54,322 nt of DNA from Planctomycetales bacterium (GTDB lineage: Bacteria > Planctomycetota > Phycisphaerae > SM23-33), in NCBI GenBank assembly GCA_030612725.1, contig JAUWNJ010000020.1, forward strand, positions 1 to 54,322. The letters are read 5' to 3'. Under the pieces are notes generated by a model. The model was not told the DNA's origin. It ran no database searches and saw only the letters and a list, made by a program, of their open reading frames with translations. Shown here piece after piece: positions 10,071 through 38,494 of the stretch (positions are counted from its first letter, which is position 1; every line of letters starts with the position of its first letter). The translations under genes and the position numbers were made by a program.

Positions 10071-10157
10071 ATTCAGCGTTCAGCGTTCAGCAATCAGCAA
10101 AAACGTACAGAAAGAAGAAACTGACCGCTGAATGCTGATTGCTGACTGCTTGCTGTT
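10071..10157. repeat. Quasi-palindromic heptamer-word repeat (TTCAGC/AATCAGC family)
   Basis: The left arm (10071-10100) is a run of 7-base words of the form RTTCAGC / AATCAGC. The right arm (10121-10157) contains the complementary words GCTGAAT, GCTGATT and GCTGACT. The arms can pair over most of their length around a purine-rich loop. The same word family recurs at 23890-24086. Confidence 0.75.
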
Positions 10158-13443: not shown

Positions 13444-14004
13444 TTACGCGCGTCCCAGGTATTCCCCGCTGCGGGTATCTACTTTTACGACTTGTCCGTT
13501 TTCCACGAAAGGCGGGACTTTGACTCGCGCTCCGCCTTCGCAGAGAGAGTCTTTTAATTGGTTGGTGGCTGTTGCGCCTTTGACCTGCGGCGGGGTATCG
13601 ACCACCGTCAACTCAACCGTATTGGGCAGTTCGACCGAAATGACCTGGCCGTCCACGAAGGCTACTTCCAGTTGGATATTCGGCGCGAGGTACACTGCCT
13701 GGTCGCCGATAAGGTCGGATGGGATGTTTATCTGTTCGTATGATTGCGGGTCCATTACGACGTGGCTGTCGCCGTCGGAGTAGAGATACTCCATCGACTT
13801 GCGGTCGAAGATTGCCTGTTCAAGCGGCTCATCCACACGGAATCGCCCCCTGATAATCTGCCCCGTCGTAACGTTTTTCAGCCCGAGTTGCATATAACTT
13901 TGTCCCTTGCCCTTGACGACGTGTTCGGTGCTGTGGACGACCCATATATTGTTGTCGCGCGCTACACCCATCCCTTTACGAAGTTCGCTTGCCTTGATGC
14001 TCAT
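13444..14004 (-). CDS. efp: Elongation factor P
   Basis: This 186-residue EF-P rescues ribosomes stalled at polyproline stretches. It has the usual KOW-like N-terminal domain (MSIKASELRKGM) and two OB-type domains. The loop that normally carries the modified lysine reads VVKGKGQSY, placing K33 at the position of the E. coli modified Lys34. The ATG at 14004 is preceded by CAGGAGT at about 14013-14019. Its first 16 codons plus leader are duplicated in front of the neighbouring HEAT-repeat gene (16423-16470), with 3 mismatches in 48 bases. Confidence 0.95.
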   Translation of the reverse strand: MSIKASELRKGMGVARDNNIWVVHSTEHVVKGKGQSYMQLGLKNVTTGQIIRGRFRVDEPLEQAIFDRKSMEYLYSDGDSHVVMDPQSYEQINIPSDLIGDQAVYLAPNIQLEVAFVDGQVISVELPNTVELTVVDTPPQVKGATATNQLKDSLCEGGARVKVPPFVENGQVVKVDTRSGEYLGRA

Positions 14005-14026
14005 TGAATACTCCTGTTGAAAGTTA
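13979..14026 (-). repeat. Duplicated efp 5' segment, original copy
   Basis: This 48-base stretch (efp ribosome site, start and first codons) matches 16423-16470 with three differences, all G/A on the plus strand. Together with the pyk 3' block at 14075-14213 it forms the left copy of a direct duplication flanking the HEAT-repeat gene. Confidence 0.85.
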
Positions 14027-14074
14027 CTTACCAATTACAGGAGTGTAAGCCCCCTATGGCGAAATCGCAAGCGA

Positions 14075-14213
14075 TTATAGCGTATGGACGACGAGCGTGT
14101 TTATTGTACCGGCTTTGCGGAGCGGTCTGCCTGATACTACGGCGATTTTGTCGCCCTTGCGCGCCCATCGGAGTCGGCGGACTTCCCTTGCGGCTACGGG
14201 TAGAATCTCGCGC
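14075..14213 (-). pseudogene. Duplicated 3' fragment of pyruvate kinase
   Basis: This 139-base block matches the last codons of pyk (16683-16821) at about 95% identity (roughly 7 differences), including the TAA stop. The rest of pyk is absent here: homology stops at 14213 and the HEAT-repeat gene's stop lies 40 bases further on. It is a non-functional relic and marks one border of the inserted DNA. Confidence 0.85.
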
Positions 14214-14252
14214 GTTCATGCCTAGGCAATCCTCCAGGCATGAGTATGGCGG

Positions 14253-16382: not shown

Positions 16383-16422
16383 TCTGCTTTTTGGCTCCTT
16401 GTGATTGACTACCATGCCGCGA

Positions 16423-16470
16423 CGAAGTTCGCTTGCCTTGATACTCATTAAATACTCCTATTGAAAGTTA
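16423..16470 (-). repeat. Duplicated efp 5' segment, second copy
   Basis: This copy of the efp start region, including its ribosome site, lies upstream of the HEAT-repeat gene and in frame with it. It encodes MSIKASELRRGM against MSIKASELRKGM in efp. It is the right-hand partner of 13979-14026. Confidence 0.85.
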
Positions 16471-16544
16471 CATCCAAATTGCCCAAGTTTATCCCCCAGG
16501 ACGGACTTTTGCAATGGTTCCAACTGATTATCGGATGTGGGATT

Positions 16545-16682: not shown

Positions 16683-18173
16683 TTACAGCGTATGGACGAC
16701 GAGTGTGTTTATTGTTCCGGCTTTGCGGAGCGGTCTGCCTGATACTACGGCGATTTTGTCGCCCTTGCGTGCCCATCGGAGTCGGCGGATTTCCCTGGCG
16801 GCTACGGGTAGAATCTCGCGTGTGTGCTCGAACATTTTGACCCGTCGGGCGCATACGCCGTACGACAGGCACGCCTGTTGCATAGCCCTTTCCGACGGCG
16901 TCAATGCCAGTATCGGCACGGGAAGGCGCATCTTCGACAAGGCCCGCGCAGTGTTGCCGCTAAGCGTGAATGTAACGACAGCGCGAACGGTTTCGCTGGT
17001 GACCAGTGCGTGGGTGGCGCGGGCGATGGCCAGAAGGTCGTCGGGTATCCGGTCGCCGGCGCGCCTGGACTTCCGCCCATGCCCAGATTCGTCCAGTTCA
17101 GACAATGCCTGCTTGAAATGCCGACGCATCCGCCGGTCACTGCGGACCTCGTCGAGGTATCGCTCGGTCCGGCTGGCGATACTGTTCATCATTCGGACCG
17201 CTCTTTCGGGATATTTACCGATGGCTGTCTCGCCCGAGAGCATCACGGCGTCGGTCCCGTCGAGGATGGCGTTGGCGACGTCGGAGACCTCCGCGCGGGT
17301 GGGGATTGGGTTGTCGGTCATCGTTTCGAGCATTTGAGTGGCGATGATGCAGGATTTACCCGTCTCGGCGCACAGACGGGCCAGACGCTTCTGCACCAGC
17401 GGAACTTCCGGAAGGGACATTTCGACGCCCATATCGCCGCGCGCGACGAGGATACCGTCGGCAGCGGCGATAATCGCGTCGATATTCTTGACGGCCTGGG
17501 GCTTTTCAATTTTTGCGACGATCCTGGCTTCGCTTCCTGCGCCGACGAGAATCTTTCGCAGTGCTTTTACATCGGCTGACTTCTGTACGAACGACAGTGC
17601 GACGTAGTCGAAATCCCGCTGGGCGATCCATTTCGCGTCGGCTCGGTCTTTTTGGGTCAGGGCTGACAGCGCAAGGTTTGTTTTTGGCAGGTTGATGCCT
17701 TTGCCGCTGGAAAGTATCCCGCCGGTAACGACCCGGCAGAGGATTTTATCCCCTTTCGCCGAAGCGGAGCGGATTATTTCCAGTTCGATTTTACCGTCGT
17801 CGAGGCGGATTTTCTGGCCTTTGCGGACCCGGTCGATGAGTTCGGGAAGGGTAGTGCTTATCCGTTTGGCGTTGCCGACGACCGGCTTGCGCTGGATGAT
17901 TATTTCCGCGCCTTTTTCCAGAAGTGCTCCACCGTCGCAGACCTTACCGACGCGGATTTTAGGCCCGCACAGGTCGGCTATGACTGCCAAGGGTTCGCCG
18001 AGGTCGTTCGATACCCGGCGGATGTTTTTCAATATCTGTTCGTGTTCATCCAGCGTACCGTGGGAAAAGTTAATCCGGAACACATCCACGCCGGCCTTGA
18101 CCAGTTTGGTCAATATCGGAACGTCCCTGCTGGCCGGTCCTACAGTCGCGACAATCTTGGTCTTAATCATCAT
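16683..18173 (-). CDS. pyk: Pyruvate kinase
   Basis: This 496-residue pyruvate kinase transfers phosphate from phosphoenolpyruvate to ADP in the last step of glycolysis. The catalytic barrel carries RINFSHG (33-39), the substrate-binding [10 protein letters not shown] (221-230) with its Lys, the metal/phosphate motif [13 protein letters not shown] (244-256), and [12 protein letters not shown]-terminal regulatory domain follows. The ATG pair at 18173/18170 is preceded by AAAGGACAGG, and an earlier in-frame ATG at 18239 lacks one. Its last 139 bases are duplicated at 14075-14213. Confidence 0.95.
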
Positions 18174-18421: not shown

Positions 18422-19072
18422 ATTCTGTAAACATGTTAGCCCACGGCGGAAGCCGTGGGTAGAAGGTTGATTTCAATACAATTCAGCCCCTTCAGGGGCG
18501 GCACAAGAAAGGGCGACGATAATGAGTCACGCATACACCAAATTATTGAGCCACTGTGTCTTCAGCACCAAGGACAGGCGTCCATTGTTGAAAGGTTCGG
18601 TATCGGAAAAGATCAACGCCTACATGGCCGGTATCGCCCGCAATCACGATATGCATCTGGTGCGGGCTGGCGGAACTGCCGATCATCGGCACTTACTGTT
18701 GGATCTGAAACCCACTACCAATGTCTGCGACGCGATTCGTGTGATAAAGGCAAATTCATCAAAATGGCTTCACGAGACATTCCCGGAAGTCGGCGGATTT
18801 GGTTGGCAGACCGGTTATGCAGCCTTTTCCGTCAGCGAATCCGCGCGGGCGAAGGTAATCGCTTACATAGACGGGCAAGAGCAGCATCATCGAAAGATGA
18901 CATTCGAAGAAGAGTTAATGGCGCTGCTTGATCGTCATGGAATCTCTCATGATGCCATCCAGGTAAGACGGTAAATTGTGTCGCCCCTGAAGGGGCTGAT
19001 TTGCGTGTTGGGTGATCTTTTTCCCACGGCTCCCGCCGTGGGCTAGCATGTTTCGCCCTTCGGGCTTACAGA
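18422..19072 (+). mobile_element. IS200/IS605-like insertion sequence (651 bp)
   Basis: The element holds one Y1 transposase between structured ends. The left end has hairpins at 18440-18459 (CCCACGGC stem) and 18486-18499 (GCCCC stem). The right end has hairpins at 18983-18996 (GCCCC stem) and 19023-19042 (CCCACGGC stem), plus a short GCCC stem near 19054. The boundaries are inferred from the shared outer limits of the related solo element at 19124-19322. The common 5' end is ATTCTGTRAACATGTTAGCC and the common 3' end is CGGGCTTACAGA. No target duplication is visible, as expected for this single-strand transposing class. Confidence 0.8.
18522..18974 (+). CDS. tnpA: IS200-like Y1 (tyrosine, HUH-type) transposase
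   Basis: This 150-residue single-domain transposase is of the Y1_Tnp family, which cuts and joins single-stranded DNA at hairpin ends. The His-x-His metal site is HRH at 55-57 (ADHRHLLLDL), where Arg stands in the position that is usually hydrophobic. The expected nucleophile is Y115 in VIAYIDGQEQHHRKM. Other conserved parts are FSTKDRRPLL and KANSSKWLHE. Length fits the family (about 150). The start is preceded by AAAGGG about 10 bases upstream. There is no TnpB partner. The frame is intact, so the element may be active. Confidence 0.9.
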   Translation: MSHAYTKLLSHCVFSTKDRRPLLKGSVSEKINAYMAGIARNHDMHLVRAGGTADHRHLLLDLKPTTNVCDAIRVIKANSSKWLHETFPEVGGFGWQTGYAAFSVSESARAKVIAYIDGQEQHHRKMTFEEELMALLDRHGISHDAIQVRR

Positions 19073-19123: not shown

Positions 19124-19322
19124 ATTCTGTGAACATGTTAGCCCACGGCGGGAGCCGTGGGTGAGAGATGGGTTTCGAATATGATCCAGCCCCTTTAGGG
19201 GCAACACAGGTTGTTGTCGGGTAAATTGTGTCGCCCTTGAAGGGGCTGATTTGCGTGTTGGGTGATCTTTTTCCCACGGCTCCCGCCGTGGGCTAGCATG
19301 TTTCGCCCTTCGGGCTTACAGA
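19124..19322. mobile_element. Solo, transposase-less derivative of the IS200-like element (199 bp)
   Basis: This element has the same left end (hairpin at about 19142-19161, then the GCCCC stem) joined directly to the same right end. Positions 19221-19322 match 18971-19072 with one visible difference. It lacks the transposase gene and sits only 51 bases from the full element, so it is a MITE/PATE-type derivative that could be moved in trans. Confidence 0.85.
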
Positions 19323-23003: not shown

Positions 23004-23885
23004 TTATGTCCCGATGAAAACCTTTTCCGGTTGAAGTTTTTCGCCGGCTTGGTCAGGCCTCAACAAACCGATTAAACTCCCTCCCGTATCGACAGCGCCG
23101 AGCAGTTTTTCGCCGCTGCCGGGTTTTCCGGGTAAGTCAATTGCCCTGCCATGAGCCAATTCGCGCACCTGCTCGTCGGTAACGGTTATCCTGATTTCGG
23201 GCGGTAATGCCTCGATTGGATTGATGAGAAACTGTTCGATATTGTCGGCATTGATTTGGTCCGGCCCGACGGCGCGGTCGATACCGAAAGGTCCGACGGT
23301 TTCGCGGATGATTTTCTCGCAGTATCCGCCGACGCCCAGTTCGGCTCCGATGTCTCGCACGAGCGAGCGGATGTATGTCCCGCTGCCGCAACTGACCCTG
23401 AGCCGGAGGCGCGGATATTCATATTCGACAATTTCCATTGAATAAATGGTAACTTTTTTCGGCGCGAGGTCCGGCTTTTGCCCTGCCCGCGCCATTTTAT
23501 ACGCTCGCTGCCCGTTGACCTTCACAGCAGAGTATGCCGGTGGAACCTGCTCTATAACGCCGCTGAAATGTTGCACGACCTGTTCGACATGATTGGTCGA
23601 AGGCTGCGAGGTTACGGCGGTTTCGGTGATTTGTCCTTCGGCGTCGTCGGTGGTGCTGGTTGCGCCCAGGCGGGCCAGCGTGGTATATTGTTTAGACCAG
23701 GATTGTACCATATTCACCAGACGGGTTGCCTGACCCAGACAGACCACCAGTACGCCTTCTGCCAGCGGGTCGAGCGTACCGGCATGTCCGACCTTGACCT
23801 TTCGCCCGACACACCGCCGGACGTGGCGGATTATGTCGAAACTGCTCAAACCGTCCGGCTTCAAGATATTCAGGAATCCAAACAT
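23004..23885 (-). CDS. truB: tRNA pseudouridine(55) synthase
   Basis: This 293-residue TruB makes pseudouridine 55 in the T-loop of tRNA. The N-terminal GFLNILKPDGLSS matches the family's KPxGxTS start. The catalytic aspartate is D39 in VGHAGTLDPLAEGVL. CGSGTYIRSLVRDIGAELG is also typical. A C-terminal PUA-like part is present. The ATG at 23885 is chosen by family alignment. It has no clear ribosome site, and the inverted repeat arm ends near 23899, only 14 bases upstream. Confidence 0.95.
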   Translation of the reverse strand: MFGFLNILKPDGLSSFDIIRHVRRCVGRKVKVGHAGTLDPLAEGVLVVCLGQATRLVNMVQSWSKQYTTLARLGATSTTDDAEGQITETAVTSQPSTNHVEQVVQHFSGVIEQVPPAYSAVKVNGQRAYKMARAGQKPDLAPKKVTIYSMEIVEYEYPRLRLRVSCGSGTYIRSLVRDIGAELGVGGYCEKIIRETVGPFGIDRAVGPDQINADNIEQFLINPIEALPPEIRITVTDEQVRELAHGRAIDLPGKPGSGEKLLGAVDTGGSLIGLLRPDQAGEKLQPEKVFIGT

Positions 23886-23889
23886 TATA

Positions 23890-24092
23890 TGGCAATCAGC
23901 GTTCCACGTAGTGGTGCTACGCACAGCAGTCAGCGAACAGCAATCAGCAATCAGCAATCAGCAATCAGCAATCAGCAAAAGCACACAGAAAGAAAAAACG
24001 GATTAGCAATCAGCGTTCAGCAACTAACCACTATGGTTTTTTTGCTGTTCGCTGACTGCTGTGCGTAGCACCACTACGTGGAACGCTTAACG
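23890..24092. repeat. Compound heptamer-word element with perfect 44-bp inverted repeat
   Basis: A perfect 44-base inverted repeat (23899-23942 and 24043-24086) encloses five exact tandem copies of AATCAGC (23942-23976) and further RTTCAGC words. The outer arm sequence (CCACGTAGTGGTGCTACGCA) is itself partly palindromic and belongs to a different family from the AATCAGC core, so one element may be nested in another. It fills the 23886-24221 gap between two divergent genes, together with a nonamer run at 24132-24160. Confidence 0.85.
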
Positions 24093-24160: not shown

Positions 24161-24239
24161 TCTTTGCTATATAATTCAATACCGAATCGTATATTTCCGA
24201 TGGGTATAGTGGGCCGGTACCGTGCGGGTAAGCGAGGTT

Positions 24240-25418
24240 ATGAGCGATTTTCTGTCCACTACGGTATTGGTCCAGTCCGACCATGCGGAATTGCTTGAAA
24301 GCATCATCCGATTAAGCGCCGATCTTTCAGCCGTCGGCGACCGGATAAAGATGCTGGATATGATTTTGTCCGAGGCTCGCCGGATCAGCGGCGCTCAAGC
24401 GGGTAGTCTATACATCCGCCGCGACGGGGCGTTGGAATTTGTCGTTGCCCAGAACGATGCCGTAGATATTACCAATCTGTCAGAGCATCTGCTGGGAAAG
24501 ACGGTTGAAGTTGGGAGTAATTCGCTGTCCGGATTCGCCGCCGCTACGGGACGGACCATAAATATCCCCGATTCTCATAAACTTGCCCCCGGAACGCCGT
24601 TTAGAATTCACCGTGATTTTGATGCCGCCACAGGATACCAGGCAGTGAGCATTCTGGCGATTCCTCTCAAGTGTCCGGATGGTGAGGTCGTGGGCGTCCT
24701 GCAACTGATTAATCGCCTAAATGACGTCGGGACGGTTGTACCGTTTGCGGGGGCCGAAGATCAGGCCATTATGTCGCTTGTCTCAATGGCCGCCGTCAGC
24801 ATCCAGAACGCCCTGTTGGCAGATCGACTCAAGCAGGCGCATCTGGATACGGTTATCCATTTAAGCGTCGTAGCCGAATTCCGCGACCGCAACACTGCTA
24901 AGCATATCGAGCGCATAAGCCGGATCAGCACTCTGATCGCGCAGGGAATGGGGCTTGCTACCGAACAGGTTGAAATTATTCAGTACGCCAGTCCAATGCA
25001 CGATATAGGAAAAATCGGCATTCCGGATTCAATCCTGCTCAAACCGGGACCGCTGACGGACGATGAACGGAAGATCGTCGAGACGCACACGATTATGGGC
25101 GCTGAAATCCTCTCAAACGCGACGAGTGAACTGATAAGCATGGCCCGCGATATCGCCCTCTCTCACCACGAACGATGGGACGGGACGGGATACCCACATT
25201 GCCTCAAAGGCGCGAGTATTTCGCTGCCGGGAAGGATCGTCTGCCTTGCCGACGTCTTCGACGCACTGATATCCGAGCGGTGCTACAAAGAAGCCTACCC
25301 CATCGAAAAAGTCCTCGAAATCATCCAGGACGAAAAAGGCAAACACTTCGACCCGAATGTTACCGAGGTGTTCCTTGGCGTCCTCGACGAAGTCCTTGCC
25401 ATATACGAAAACGACTGA
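24240..25418 (+). CDS. GAF domain/HD-GYP phosphodiesterase
   Basis: This 392-residue cytoplasmic protein has an N-terminal GAF sensor (about 20-195; AIPLKCPDGEVVGVLQLINR) and a C-terminal HD-GYP domain, which hydrolyses cyclic di-GMP. The metal site HDIGK is at 254-258 and the signature HHERWDGTGYP at 309-319, both intact. There is no receiver domain, so the signal is probably a small ligand bound by GAF. The ATG at 24240 has GAGG very close upstream. A GTG at 24222 in the same frame would add six residues and cannot be excluded. It is divergent from truB across the repeat block. Confidence 0.88.
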   Translation: MSDFLSTTVLVQSDHAELLESIIRLSADLSAVGDRIKMLDMILSEARRISGAQAGSLYIRRDGALEFVVAQNDAVDITNLSEHLLGKTVEVGSNSLSGFAAATGRTINIPDSHKLAPGTPFRIHRDFDAATGYQAVSILAIPLKCPDGEVVGVLQLINRLNDVGTVVPFAGAEDQAIMSLVSMAAVSIQNALLADRLKQAHLDTVIHLSVVAEFRDRNTAKHIERISRISTLIAQGMGLATEQVEIIQYASPMHDIGKIGIPDSILLKPGPLTDDERKIVETHTIMGAEILSNATSELISMARDIALSHHERWDGTGYPHCLKGASISLPGRIVCLADVFDALISERCYKEAYPIEKVLEIIQDEKGKHFDPNVTEVFLGVLDEVLAIYEND

Positions 25419-37693: not shown

Positions 37694-37778
37694 ACATGCG
37701 TCGCTAAAGCGAGCACGCCAAAAGAATGGGTGCGCTTCAAGCGGTATCTTTTGGCGTGCTCGCTTTAGCGACGCATGT
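37694..37778. repeat. REP-type hairpin, left flank of the RAYT gene
   Basis: A perfect 32-base inverted repeat (37694-37725 and 37747-37778) has a 21-base loop. The stem reads ACATGCGTCGCTAAAGCGAG and onward. The transposase stop codon (37765-37767) and its last codons lie within the right arm. Confidence 0.9.
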
Positions 37779-38421
37779 TCTTTTGCGTCCTCTTGTACCT
37801 CTGATACGGAACATCTTCCATAAACGCCCCCAGTTCCAGCGCACGCCGAAGTCCTCTTTCAAATTCAATGTTGACATGCGTGTGTGGGTAATCTCTCCAG
37901 TTTGAACAGACCCCATGACGGACGCTTTGAGTAAGAGTGTAACGATAAGCAAGTCTGCACTGTTTTTCGTCGCGGATGCAACCGTCGAAGTAATCGCTGT
38001 GCCCTTTGCCTCTTTGCGTCCAGAATGGAACCCGCCGTTCCTGCAGCGTATCGTTGACGAGTTTGGCGACTGACCCGTGAATGCGCTGCATCATCTCCCC
38101 CATAAGCGTCCCTGTCTTGCAATACCCAAAAACGTGATAATGATTGTCGAGCAGCGTTGTTACCCAGGGTGTGAAGAGATGTTTGCTTGTATAGGAATCG
38201 AATCGGTTCCAGAATACCGCTTTTGCCTGTTCCGTCGCAAACGCCGGGAACTTGTCCCTGCATCGGGCGGTGATGAAATAAACCTGGTTATCGACGTACC
38301 AGTGTTCAAGACGATGCTTCTGTTTGTAACGTTCCTTTGTGGAATATGATGTCTTCAAGATATGTTTGAACACACCATAATTATAACATGCGTCGCTAAA
38401 GCGAGCACGCCAAAAGAACAT
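37765..38421 (-). CDS. REP-associated tyrosine transposase (RAYT)
   Basis: This Y1-type transposase of the REP-associated group is up to 218 residues. The HUH metal site is HYH at 94-96 (LLDNHYHVFGYCKTG). The likely nucleophile is Y161 or Y159 in RLAYRYTLTQSVRHGV. WYVDNQVYFITARC and RVPFWTQRGKGHSDYFD also match the family. Copies of the same REP hairpin stand at both ends, and both the start at 38421 and the stop at 37765 fall inside them. Because a TATAAT lies at about 38386-38381 on the minus strand, translation may really begin further in, for example at a GTG near 38373. RAYTs are thought to spread REP elements and are usually immobile themselves. Confidence 0.88.
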   Translation of the reverse strand: MFFWRARFSDACYNYGVFKHILKTSYSTKERYKQKHRLEHWYVDNQVYFITARCRDKFPAFATEQAKAVFWNRFDSYTSKHLFTPWVTTLLDNHYHVFGYCKTGTLMGEMMQRIHGSVAKLVNDTLQERRVPFWTQRGKGHSDYFDGCIRDEKQCRLAYRYTLTQSVRHGVCSNWRDYPHTHVNIEFERGLRRALELGAFMEDVPYQRYKRTQKNMRR

Positions 38422-38475
38422 AATGAAGTATCCAGCATTTTCGTTTTTGGCGTGCTCGCTTTAGCGACGCATGTT
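38386..38475. repeat. REP-type hairpin, right flank of the RAYT gene
   Basis: AACATGCGTCGCTAAAGCGA and onward at 38386-38416 pairs perfectly with 38445-38475 (31-base arms, 28-base loop). The stem is the same as in the left flank hairpin; the loops differ. The first codons of the long RAYT frame are encoded by the left arm. Confidence 0.9.
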
Positions 38476-38494
38476 ATTCGCGCAATGTGAAACC

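Follow-up and report, generated by a model that had tools for sequence, protein, structure and literature searches.

A 20-bp mobile element, probably similar in operation to the small dispersed repeats of cyanobacteria, in an inverted repeat beside truB of a planctomycete

The small dispersed repeats (SDR) of Nostocales (Elhai et al. 2008, Genome Res 18:1484) have reportedly been regarded as possibly the smallest of all mobile elements and are reported to be 21 to 27 nt in length (abstract of that study). SDR elements are known from one subgroup of the cyanobacteria. The way in which so short a sequence (20 nt) moves is a long-standing question, and retroposition has reportedly been suggested for the SDR elements. 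SDR5 was described as an insert between the third and fourth nucleotides of HIP1 (PMC4390886). The module examined here, found in both arms of an inverted repeat in a planctomycete genome, is likely to be a very small noncoding mobile element whose mode of operation resembles that of the Nostocales SDR elements. Like them, it is about 20 nt long and noncoding, its stems are compensatory, it is embedded in heptamer arrays and nested in itself, and it was recently inserted. At 20 bp, the planctomycete element is among the smallest mobile elements known and represents an SDR-like element in a second phylum.

Three other systems share parts of this design. REP/REPIN sequences with RAYT (PMC3116915, PMC3733652) are likewise short, intergenic, palindromic, dispersed, and limited to related genomes, and palindromes are occasionally used as insertion sites. 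However, they are palindromes of 20 to 40 bp carrying a GTAG or CGTC tag that is terminal and unpaired, whereas the planctomycete element consists of two 9-nt mini-hairpins with GTA and TAC loops and has no terminal tag. The double-hairpin elements (DHE) and GC clusters of fungal mitochondria (PMC4478555) are also tiny mobile palindromes with a short target duplication; their units merge and shuffle in the same way, and how they transpose is likewise unknown, with retroposition suspected for the yeast mitochondrial GC clusters (PMC4478555). They differ in their mitochondrial location, in their greater length (e.g., 42 nt for GC42), in duplicating AG, and in having hosts with intron-encoded endonucleases and reverse transcriptases, and the likeness is one of design only. 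The STRR of heterocystous cyanobacteria are tandem 7-bp intergenic arrays that also host small mobile elements, but the planctomycete heptamers are NNTCAGC and GAATATT, often in opposed arrays flanking an A-rich core.

The window (the whole stretch of 54,322 nt that was analyzed) belongs to a genome of 3.16 Mb in 65 contigs, referred to as G000. The inverted repeat lies in the intergenic region of two divergent genes, truB (23004 to 23885, minus strand), which encodes tRNA pseudouridine synthase B, and a gene for a GAF and HD-GYP domain protein (24222 to 25418, plus strand). Here, a left arm (23898 to 23943, plus strand) and a right arm (24042 to 24087, minus strand) of 46 nt each, 100% complementary and 98 nt apart, formed a perfect inverted repeat. 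The preliminary description had reported this repeat with arms of 44 nt, beginning 14 bases from the truB start; the repeat held, with the longer arms given here, as did its position, about 13 nt from the ATG at 23885, a start codon conserved in four of four congeneric genomes. The strand folded far more strongly than shuffled sequences (DNA z = -13). The earlier suggestion that a hairpin could affect truB translation is conjecture without supporting data. No known RNA family was found at the locus, and a promoter and terminator scan of it gave no result.

Both arms contained CCACGTAGTGGTGCTACGCA (23904 to 23923, plus strand; 24062 to 24081, minus strand), of which there was no other copy in the window (0.01 expected at ≤3 mismatches). 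The left copy has a 19-nt core of subfamily A, CAC(GTA)GTG-G-TGC(TAC)GCA (23905 to 23923, plus strand), flanked by a duplicated C at 23904 and 23924 within the heptamer word GTT^CAGC. The core of the right copy, also of subfamily A (24062 to 24080, minus strand), is flanked by a duplicated G at 24061 and 24081. Five tandem AATCAGC words (23942 to 23976, plus strand), correctly noted earlier, form an array belonging to a dispersed NNTCAGC heptamer repeat, followed by an array core, AAAAGCACACAGAAAGAAAAAACGGATTAGC (23977 to 24007, plus strand), that is similar to a core between opposed heptamer arrays elsewhere (e.g., at 10100 to 10124 of the window, L005). Two more heptamers, AATCAGC GTTCAGC, occupy 24008 to 24021 (plus strand), GTTCAGC being the empty form of the subfamily A target word. 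Single copies of AATCAGC began at 23894 and 24008, and the whole window contained 21 copies, compared to 7.2 expected.

The 19-nt core of the element can be written as NNC(GTA)GNN, a 1-nt spacer, and NNC(TAC)GNN, which corresponds to two 9-nt mini-hairpins with 3-bp stems closed by C-G; the motif CGTAGN5CTACG was common to all copies analyzed. At least four subfamilies were distinguished by stem sequence, with pairing kept through compensatory changes, and the main cores were CACGTAGTG-G-TGCTACGCA (A), CACGTAGTG-A-TGCTACGCA (B), CGCGTAGCG-A-TACTACGTA (C), and CCCGTAGGG-A-CACTACGTG (D). Among 16 distinct cores, stem covariation produced 16 double-change cells versus 5.5 ± 2.4 in shuffles (0 of 500 shuffles reached 16), and only 0 or 1 double changes remained when the partners were slid by 1 to 3 columns. 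At 95 of the 99 planctomycete sites, the bases to the left and right of the core were identical, corresponding to a target duplication of 1 nt. The spacer base was complementary to the duplicated base in subfamilies A, B, and D, whereas in C it was frequently noncomplementary. The ends of the element are not inverted repeats, and with a duplication of 1 nt only, the criterion for a MITE was not met.

A single long CGTAG...CTACG hairpin was rejected as the conserved structure, as it showed no covariation signal and is impossible for the TAC...TAC cores of Nostoc. For planctomycete cores, the energy model nevertheless preferred the single hairpin over the double mini-hairpins; because energy favors one structure and covariation the other, the element may be bistable between them, which is no more than a possibility. 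It is very unlikely that the palindromic halves are instead selected binding sites of a dimeric protein, with covariation reflecting symmetric recognition. The 3-bp stems are indeed weak (total of about -2 to -4 kcal/mol), and mirror-symmetric sites covary too, but each subfamily would need a protein of different specificity, and the exact insertions and nesting described below would be left unexplained.

The distribution of the mobile element was narrow. In a pattern-based and stretch-by-stretch search of the genome of origin, the 20-mer was found at ≤3 mismatches in 35 places, compared to 0 for the reversed control. Matches to CGTAGN5CTACG numbered 61 in G000, 37 in G002 (Planctomycetales MAG CSMAG_432, JAUVIQ01), 11 in G001 (CSMAG_1454, DAOVLV01, 77% complete), and 0 in G003, which is of the same genus; 76 other relatives had 0 to 6. 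No further element-carrying lineage was found among 392 genomes of the phylum. Genome G111 of the same phylum was rejected as a carrier, its 51 motif matches being a plain 8-bp hairpin (GGCGTAGCAGGGCTACGCC) accounted for by a dispersed palindrome, GGCGTAGC-AGG-GCTACGCC (e.g., L257 to L260). Singletons in unrelated genomes were also rejected as carriers, since their number was within chance (about 30 expected by our own estimate, 257 Gb), and viral spread was rejected, as viral contigs contained 0 motif matches. The TAC...TAC type was not enriched in these planctomycetes over relatives or the control.

The mobility of the element, as well as its architecture, is shown. In five orthologous pairs of filled and empty sites, every difference was exactly 20 bp, corresponding to the element plus one base. 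One pair had a C element within the spacer of a B element (L192/L203), another had a B element within the loop of a B element (L199/L224), and two more had the 20-bp difference between filled and empty forms (L167/L204 and L190/L242). The fifth was the right arm of the truB repeat, where GACTGCT[GTGCGTAGCACCACTACGTG]GAACGCT in G000 corresponded to the empty site GACTGCTGAACGCT in G001, again exactly 20 bp. The direction is inferred to be insertion rather than excision because of the nesting and the restriction to part of one genus, although excision cannot be excluded for individual pairs. The alternative that the 20-mer is not mobile but is fixed in larger intergenic repeats and spread by recombination or gene conversion is very unlikely and largely refuted. 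It is in keeping with the location of many copies in repeats and with the left arm in the window, which resembles a conversion of the right arm. Against it, the identical 20 nt was found both within other 20-mers and in repeats of at least four unrelated kinds, and orthologous sites differed by exactly 20 bp in flanks that were otherwise alignable. As a separate observation, L199, L224, and L163 represent one orthologous locus with a different element nest in each of three genomes, and an 18-bp difference there resembles a deletion within a nest.

Targets of the mobile element differed by subfamily. Subfamily A was found at TT^CA and subfamily D at GCT^TYGCT. Subfamily B used the TCT loop of GCACGGGCG-TCT-CGCCCGTGC, the GTA loop within other elements, and the sites CTT^T and TTT^T. 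Insertion points of subfamily C were GCA^Y, located either on the tip of CCCCCGGCA-T-TGCCGGGGG or precisely in the spacer of an A or B element. Stems of ≥5 bp were centered on the insertion point in 54% of targets for B and in 71% for C, compared to 7 to 8% at control offsets. Because no hairpin excess at the insertion point was found for A targets, nor for D targets as perfect stems, targeting of palindrome tips is supported only for B and C and is not universal. Elements were inserted in unrelated repeats (TCAGC heptamers, GAATATT arrays, and GC palindromes) and in each other; at L184, one 20-nt unit was broken by two others, GCTGTGCG[TCACGTAGTGATGCTACGCA]TAGCA[CCGCGTAGCGATACTACGTA]CCACTACGTGG. 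Within the window, ACATGCGTCGCTAAAGCGAGCACGCCAAAA was present in four inverted copies at 37694 to 38478; elsewhere, elements of subfamilies A and B target a related palindrome, GCTCGCTTTAGCG....

Opposed arrays of the form (NNTCAGC)n-core-(GCTGANN)n were abundant in the genome, with 93 and 96 heptamer triplets on the two strands versus 1 and 0 in the reversed control. Most TCAGC arrays in this genome lacked the 20-mer, and G003 had many heptamer arrays and 0 20-mers; the arrays are therefore independent of the element. Exact 20-mers numbered 17, with 10 in TCAGC arrays at GTT^CAGC and 7 at (G/A)TT^CAA in an unrelated GAATATT-heptamer repeat, and the variant TCACGTAGTGATGCTACGCA was found in GC palindromes and elsewhere. 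The idea that the element is part of the TCAGC repeat was rejected, as other contexts are occupied too. In the preliminary description, made from sequence alone, the outer module was considered unrelated to the AATCAGC core, one element was proposed to have inserted into another, and constant co-occurrence of the two was named as what would refute nesting. The first two claims held, the module being an independent mobile element found without TCAGC arrays, as these are found without it; the refuting observation failed, given the counts above. In the second heptamer family, GAATATT arrays surround a TTTACTTCG core (L154, L159, L165, L193, and other loci) in an opposed layout like that of the TCAGC family, with unrelated sequence.

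Congeneric genomes provided evidence of the history of the truB locus. No repeat was present there in G003. G001 had a short heptamer element, the right half of which matched the right arm of the window minus the 20-mer and contained the odd word GAACAGC as well as the inner heptamers GCTGTTCGCTGACTGCT; a counterpart of the left arm was absent. Because the left arm is missing from G001 and the GAACAGC word of the right arm is ancestral there, the left arm is inferred, most simply and with fair likelihood, to have arisen by inverted copying of the right arm once the 20-mer had been inserted. The order of events would have been a heptamer element, insertion of an A element in its right half, and inverted copying of that half leftward, which would have produced perfect 46-bp arms beside degenerate words. 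The earlier proposal of gene conversion is thus supported, by inference, from the same comparison.

Nostoc plasmids also carried 19-nt cores of this 9+1+9 design, in which the loops were TAC (or TGC) (e.g., CTCTACGAG-A-CGCTACGCG and GTCTACGAC-G-GGCTACGCC). In three 50-kb Nostoc stretches not chosen by match, 12 double mini-hairpins with a 1-nt spacer were found versus 1.3 expected, with 0 to 4 for other spacers, and stretches chosen by match contained 17 versus 1.9 expected. The GTCTACGAC-G-GGCTACGCC core was a 21-nt insert between HIP1 nucleotides 3 and 4, GCG[TAGGCGTAGCCCGTCGTAGAC]ATCGC, which matches SDR5 as described (PMC4390886). The double mini-hairpin is therefore common to the planctomycete element and the Nostoc plasmids, including the SDR5 insert, and the constancy of the 1-nt spacer and of the triloops across the two phyla suggests that structure rather than sequence is recognized. 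The two differ in host phylum, the planctomycete element being found in three planctomycete genomes, and in loops (GTA...TAC versus TAC...TAC). They also differ in length (19 nt plus a 1-nt duplication, compared to a 21-nt insert with a 19-nt core in SDR5) and in targets, which are TTCA, tips of GC palindromes, and the element's own copies rather than HIP1. Because loops, stems, and targets differ, the planctomycete element is not a member of any named SDR family.

The best remaining route of movement is inferred to be copying in trans at the DNA level, and no mobilizing enzyme was identified. The element would be copied most likely as folded single-stranded DNA, which an unidentified nuclease/ligase or transposase would join at or near exposed hairpin tips; in the window, one copy would have entered the right arm of the TCAGC-heptamer repeat. 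Retroposition, with an RNA intermediate and reverse transcription, is an unlikely alternative. Compensatory stems are compatible with an RNA hairpin, and many elements are located between genes in DNA that is probably transcribed. However, no RVT_1 reverse transcriptase was found in any of four congeneric genomes (77 to 96% complete) in a search that was positive in 3 of 14 control genomes, and C(GTA)G is also a stable triloop in DNA. In the absence of a detected reverse transcriptase in the genus, a DNA-level mechanism is favored.

Movement of REP-like sequences by a REP-associated or IS200/IS605-type Y1 (HUH) transposase is likewise unlikely. Y1 enzymes (IS200/IS605, RAYTs) act on single-stranded DNA hairpins. 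The motif contains GTAG, and 6, 6, 5, and 6 Y1_Tnp proteins were found in G000 to G003, respectively, one of them encoded in the window (18537 to 18878). Against this alternative, G003 is equally rich in Y1 proteins without having elements, and close relatives of the Y1 proteins of the genus are present there; the presence or absence of Y1 transposases showed no pattern matching that of the elements. Furthermore, the GTAG tag of REP is unpaired at one end of the palindrome (PMC3733652), whereas here GTA is the loop and G closes the stem, and a 1-nt duplication is atypical, IS200/IS605 not being known to duplicate their targets. The small IS200/IS605-type Y1 transposase in the window, with HRH replacing the usual HUH motif, adjoins repeated GCCCACGGC/GCCGTGGGC palindromes, which are Acido-Lenti-1 RNA according to Rfam; transposase and palindromes together occupy 18522 to 18974, 19023 to 19066, and 19273 to 19316. 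Because the palindromes adjoin this transposase, the Acido-Lenti-1 "RNA" could possibly be a transposase-associated DNA repeat.

A second host group in another phylum makes the question of how 20 nt move testable, because there are base-exact filled and empty sites, a 1-nt duplication, subfamily-specific targets, no detected reverse transcriptase, and an element-free congeneric genome. The responsible gene is expected to occur both in this genus and in those Nostocales that bear SDR elements, and it may be absent from G003. A bolder reading, offered tentatively and with doubt outweighing confidence, is that both elements belong to a cross-phylum class of mobile DNA of about 20 nt that is defined not by sequence but by a 9+1+9 pair of C(TAC/GTA)G triloop mini-hairpins and that is copied by a common, unrecognized DNA-level machinery of Nostocales and this genus.

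Another repeat was observed elsewhere in the window. A segment at 14075 to 14215, overlapping the 3' end of a pyruvate kinase gene, was repeated with 95% identity at 16683 to 16823 (141 nt), downstream of an ORF with HEAT repeats. Together with an 80% repeat (13968 to 14053 and 16412 to 16497), this suggests a partial duplication.
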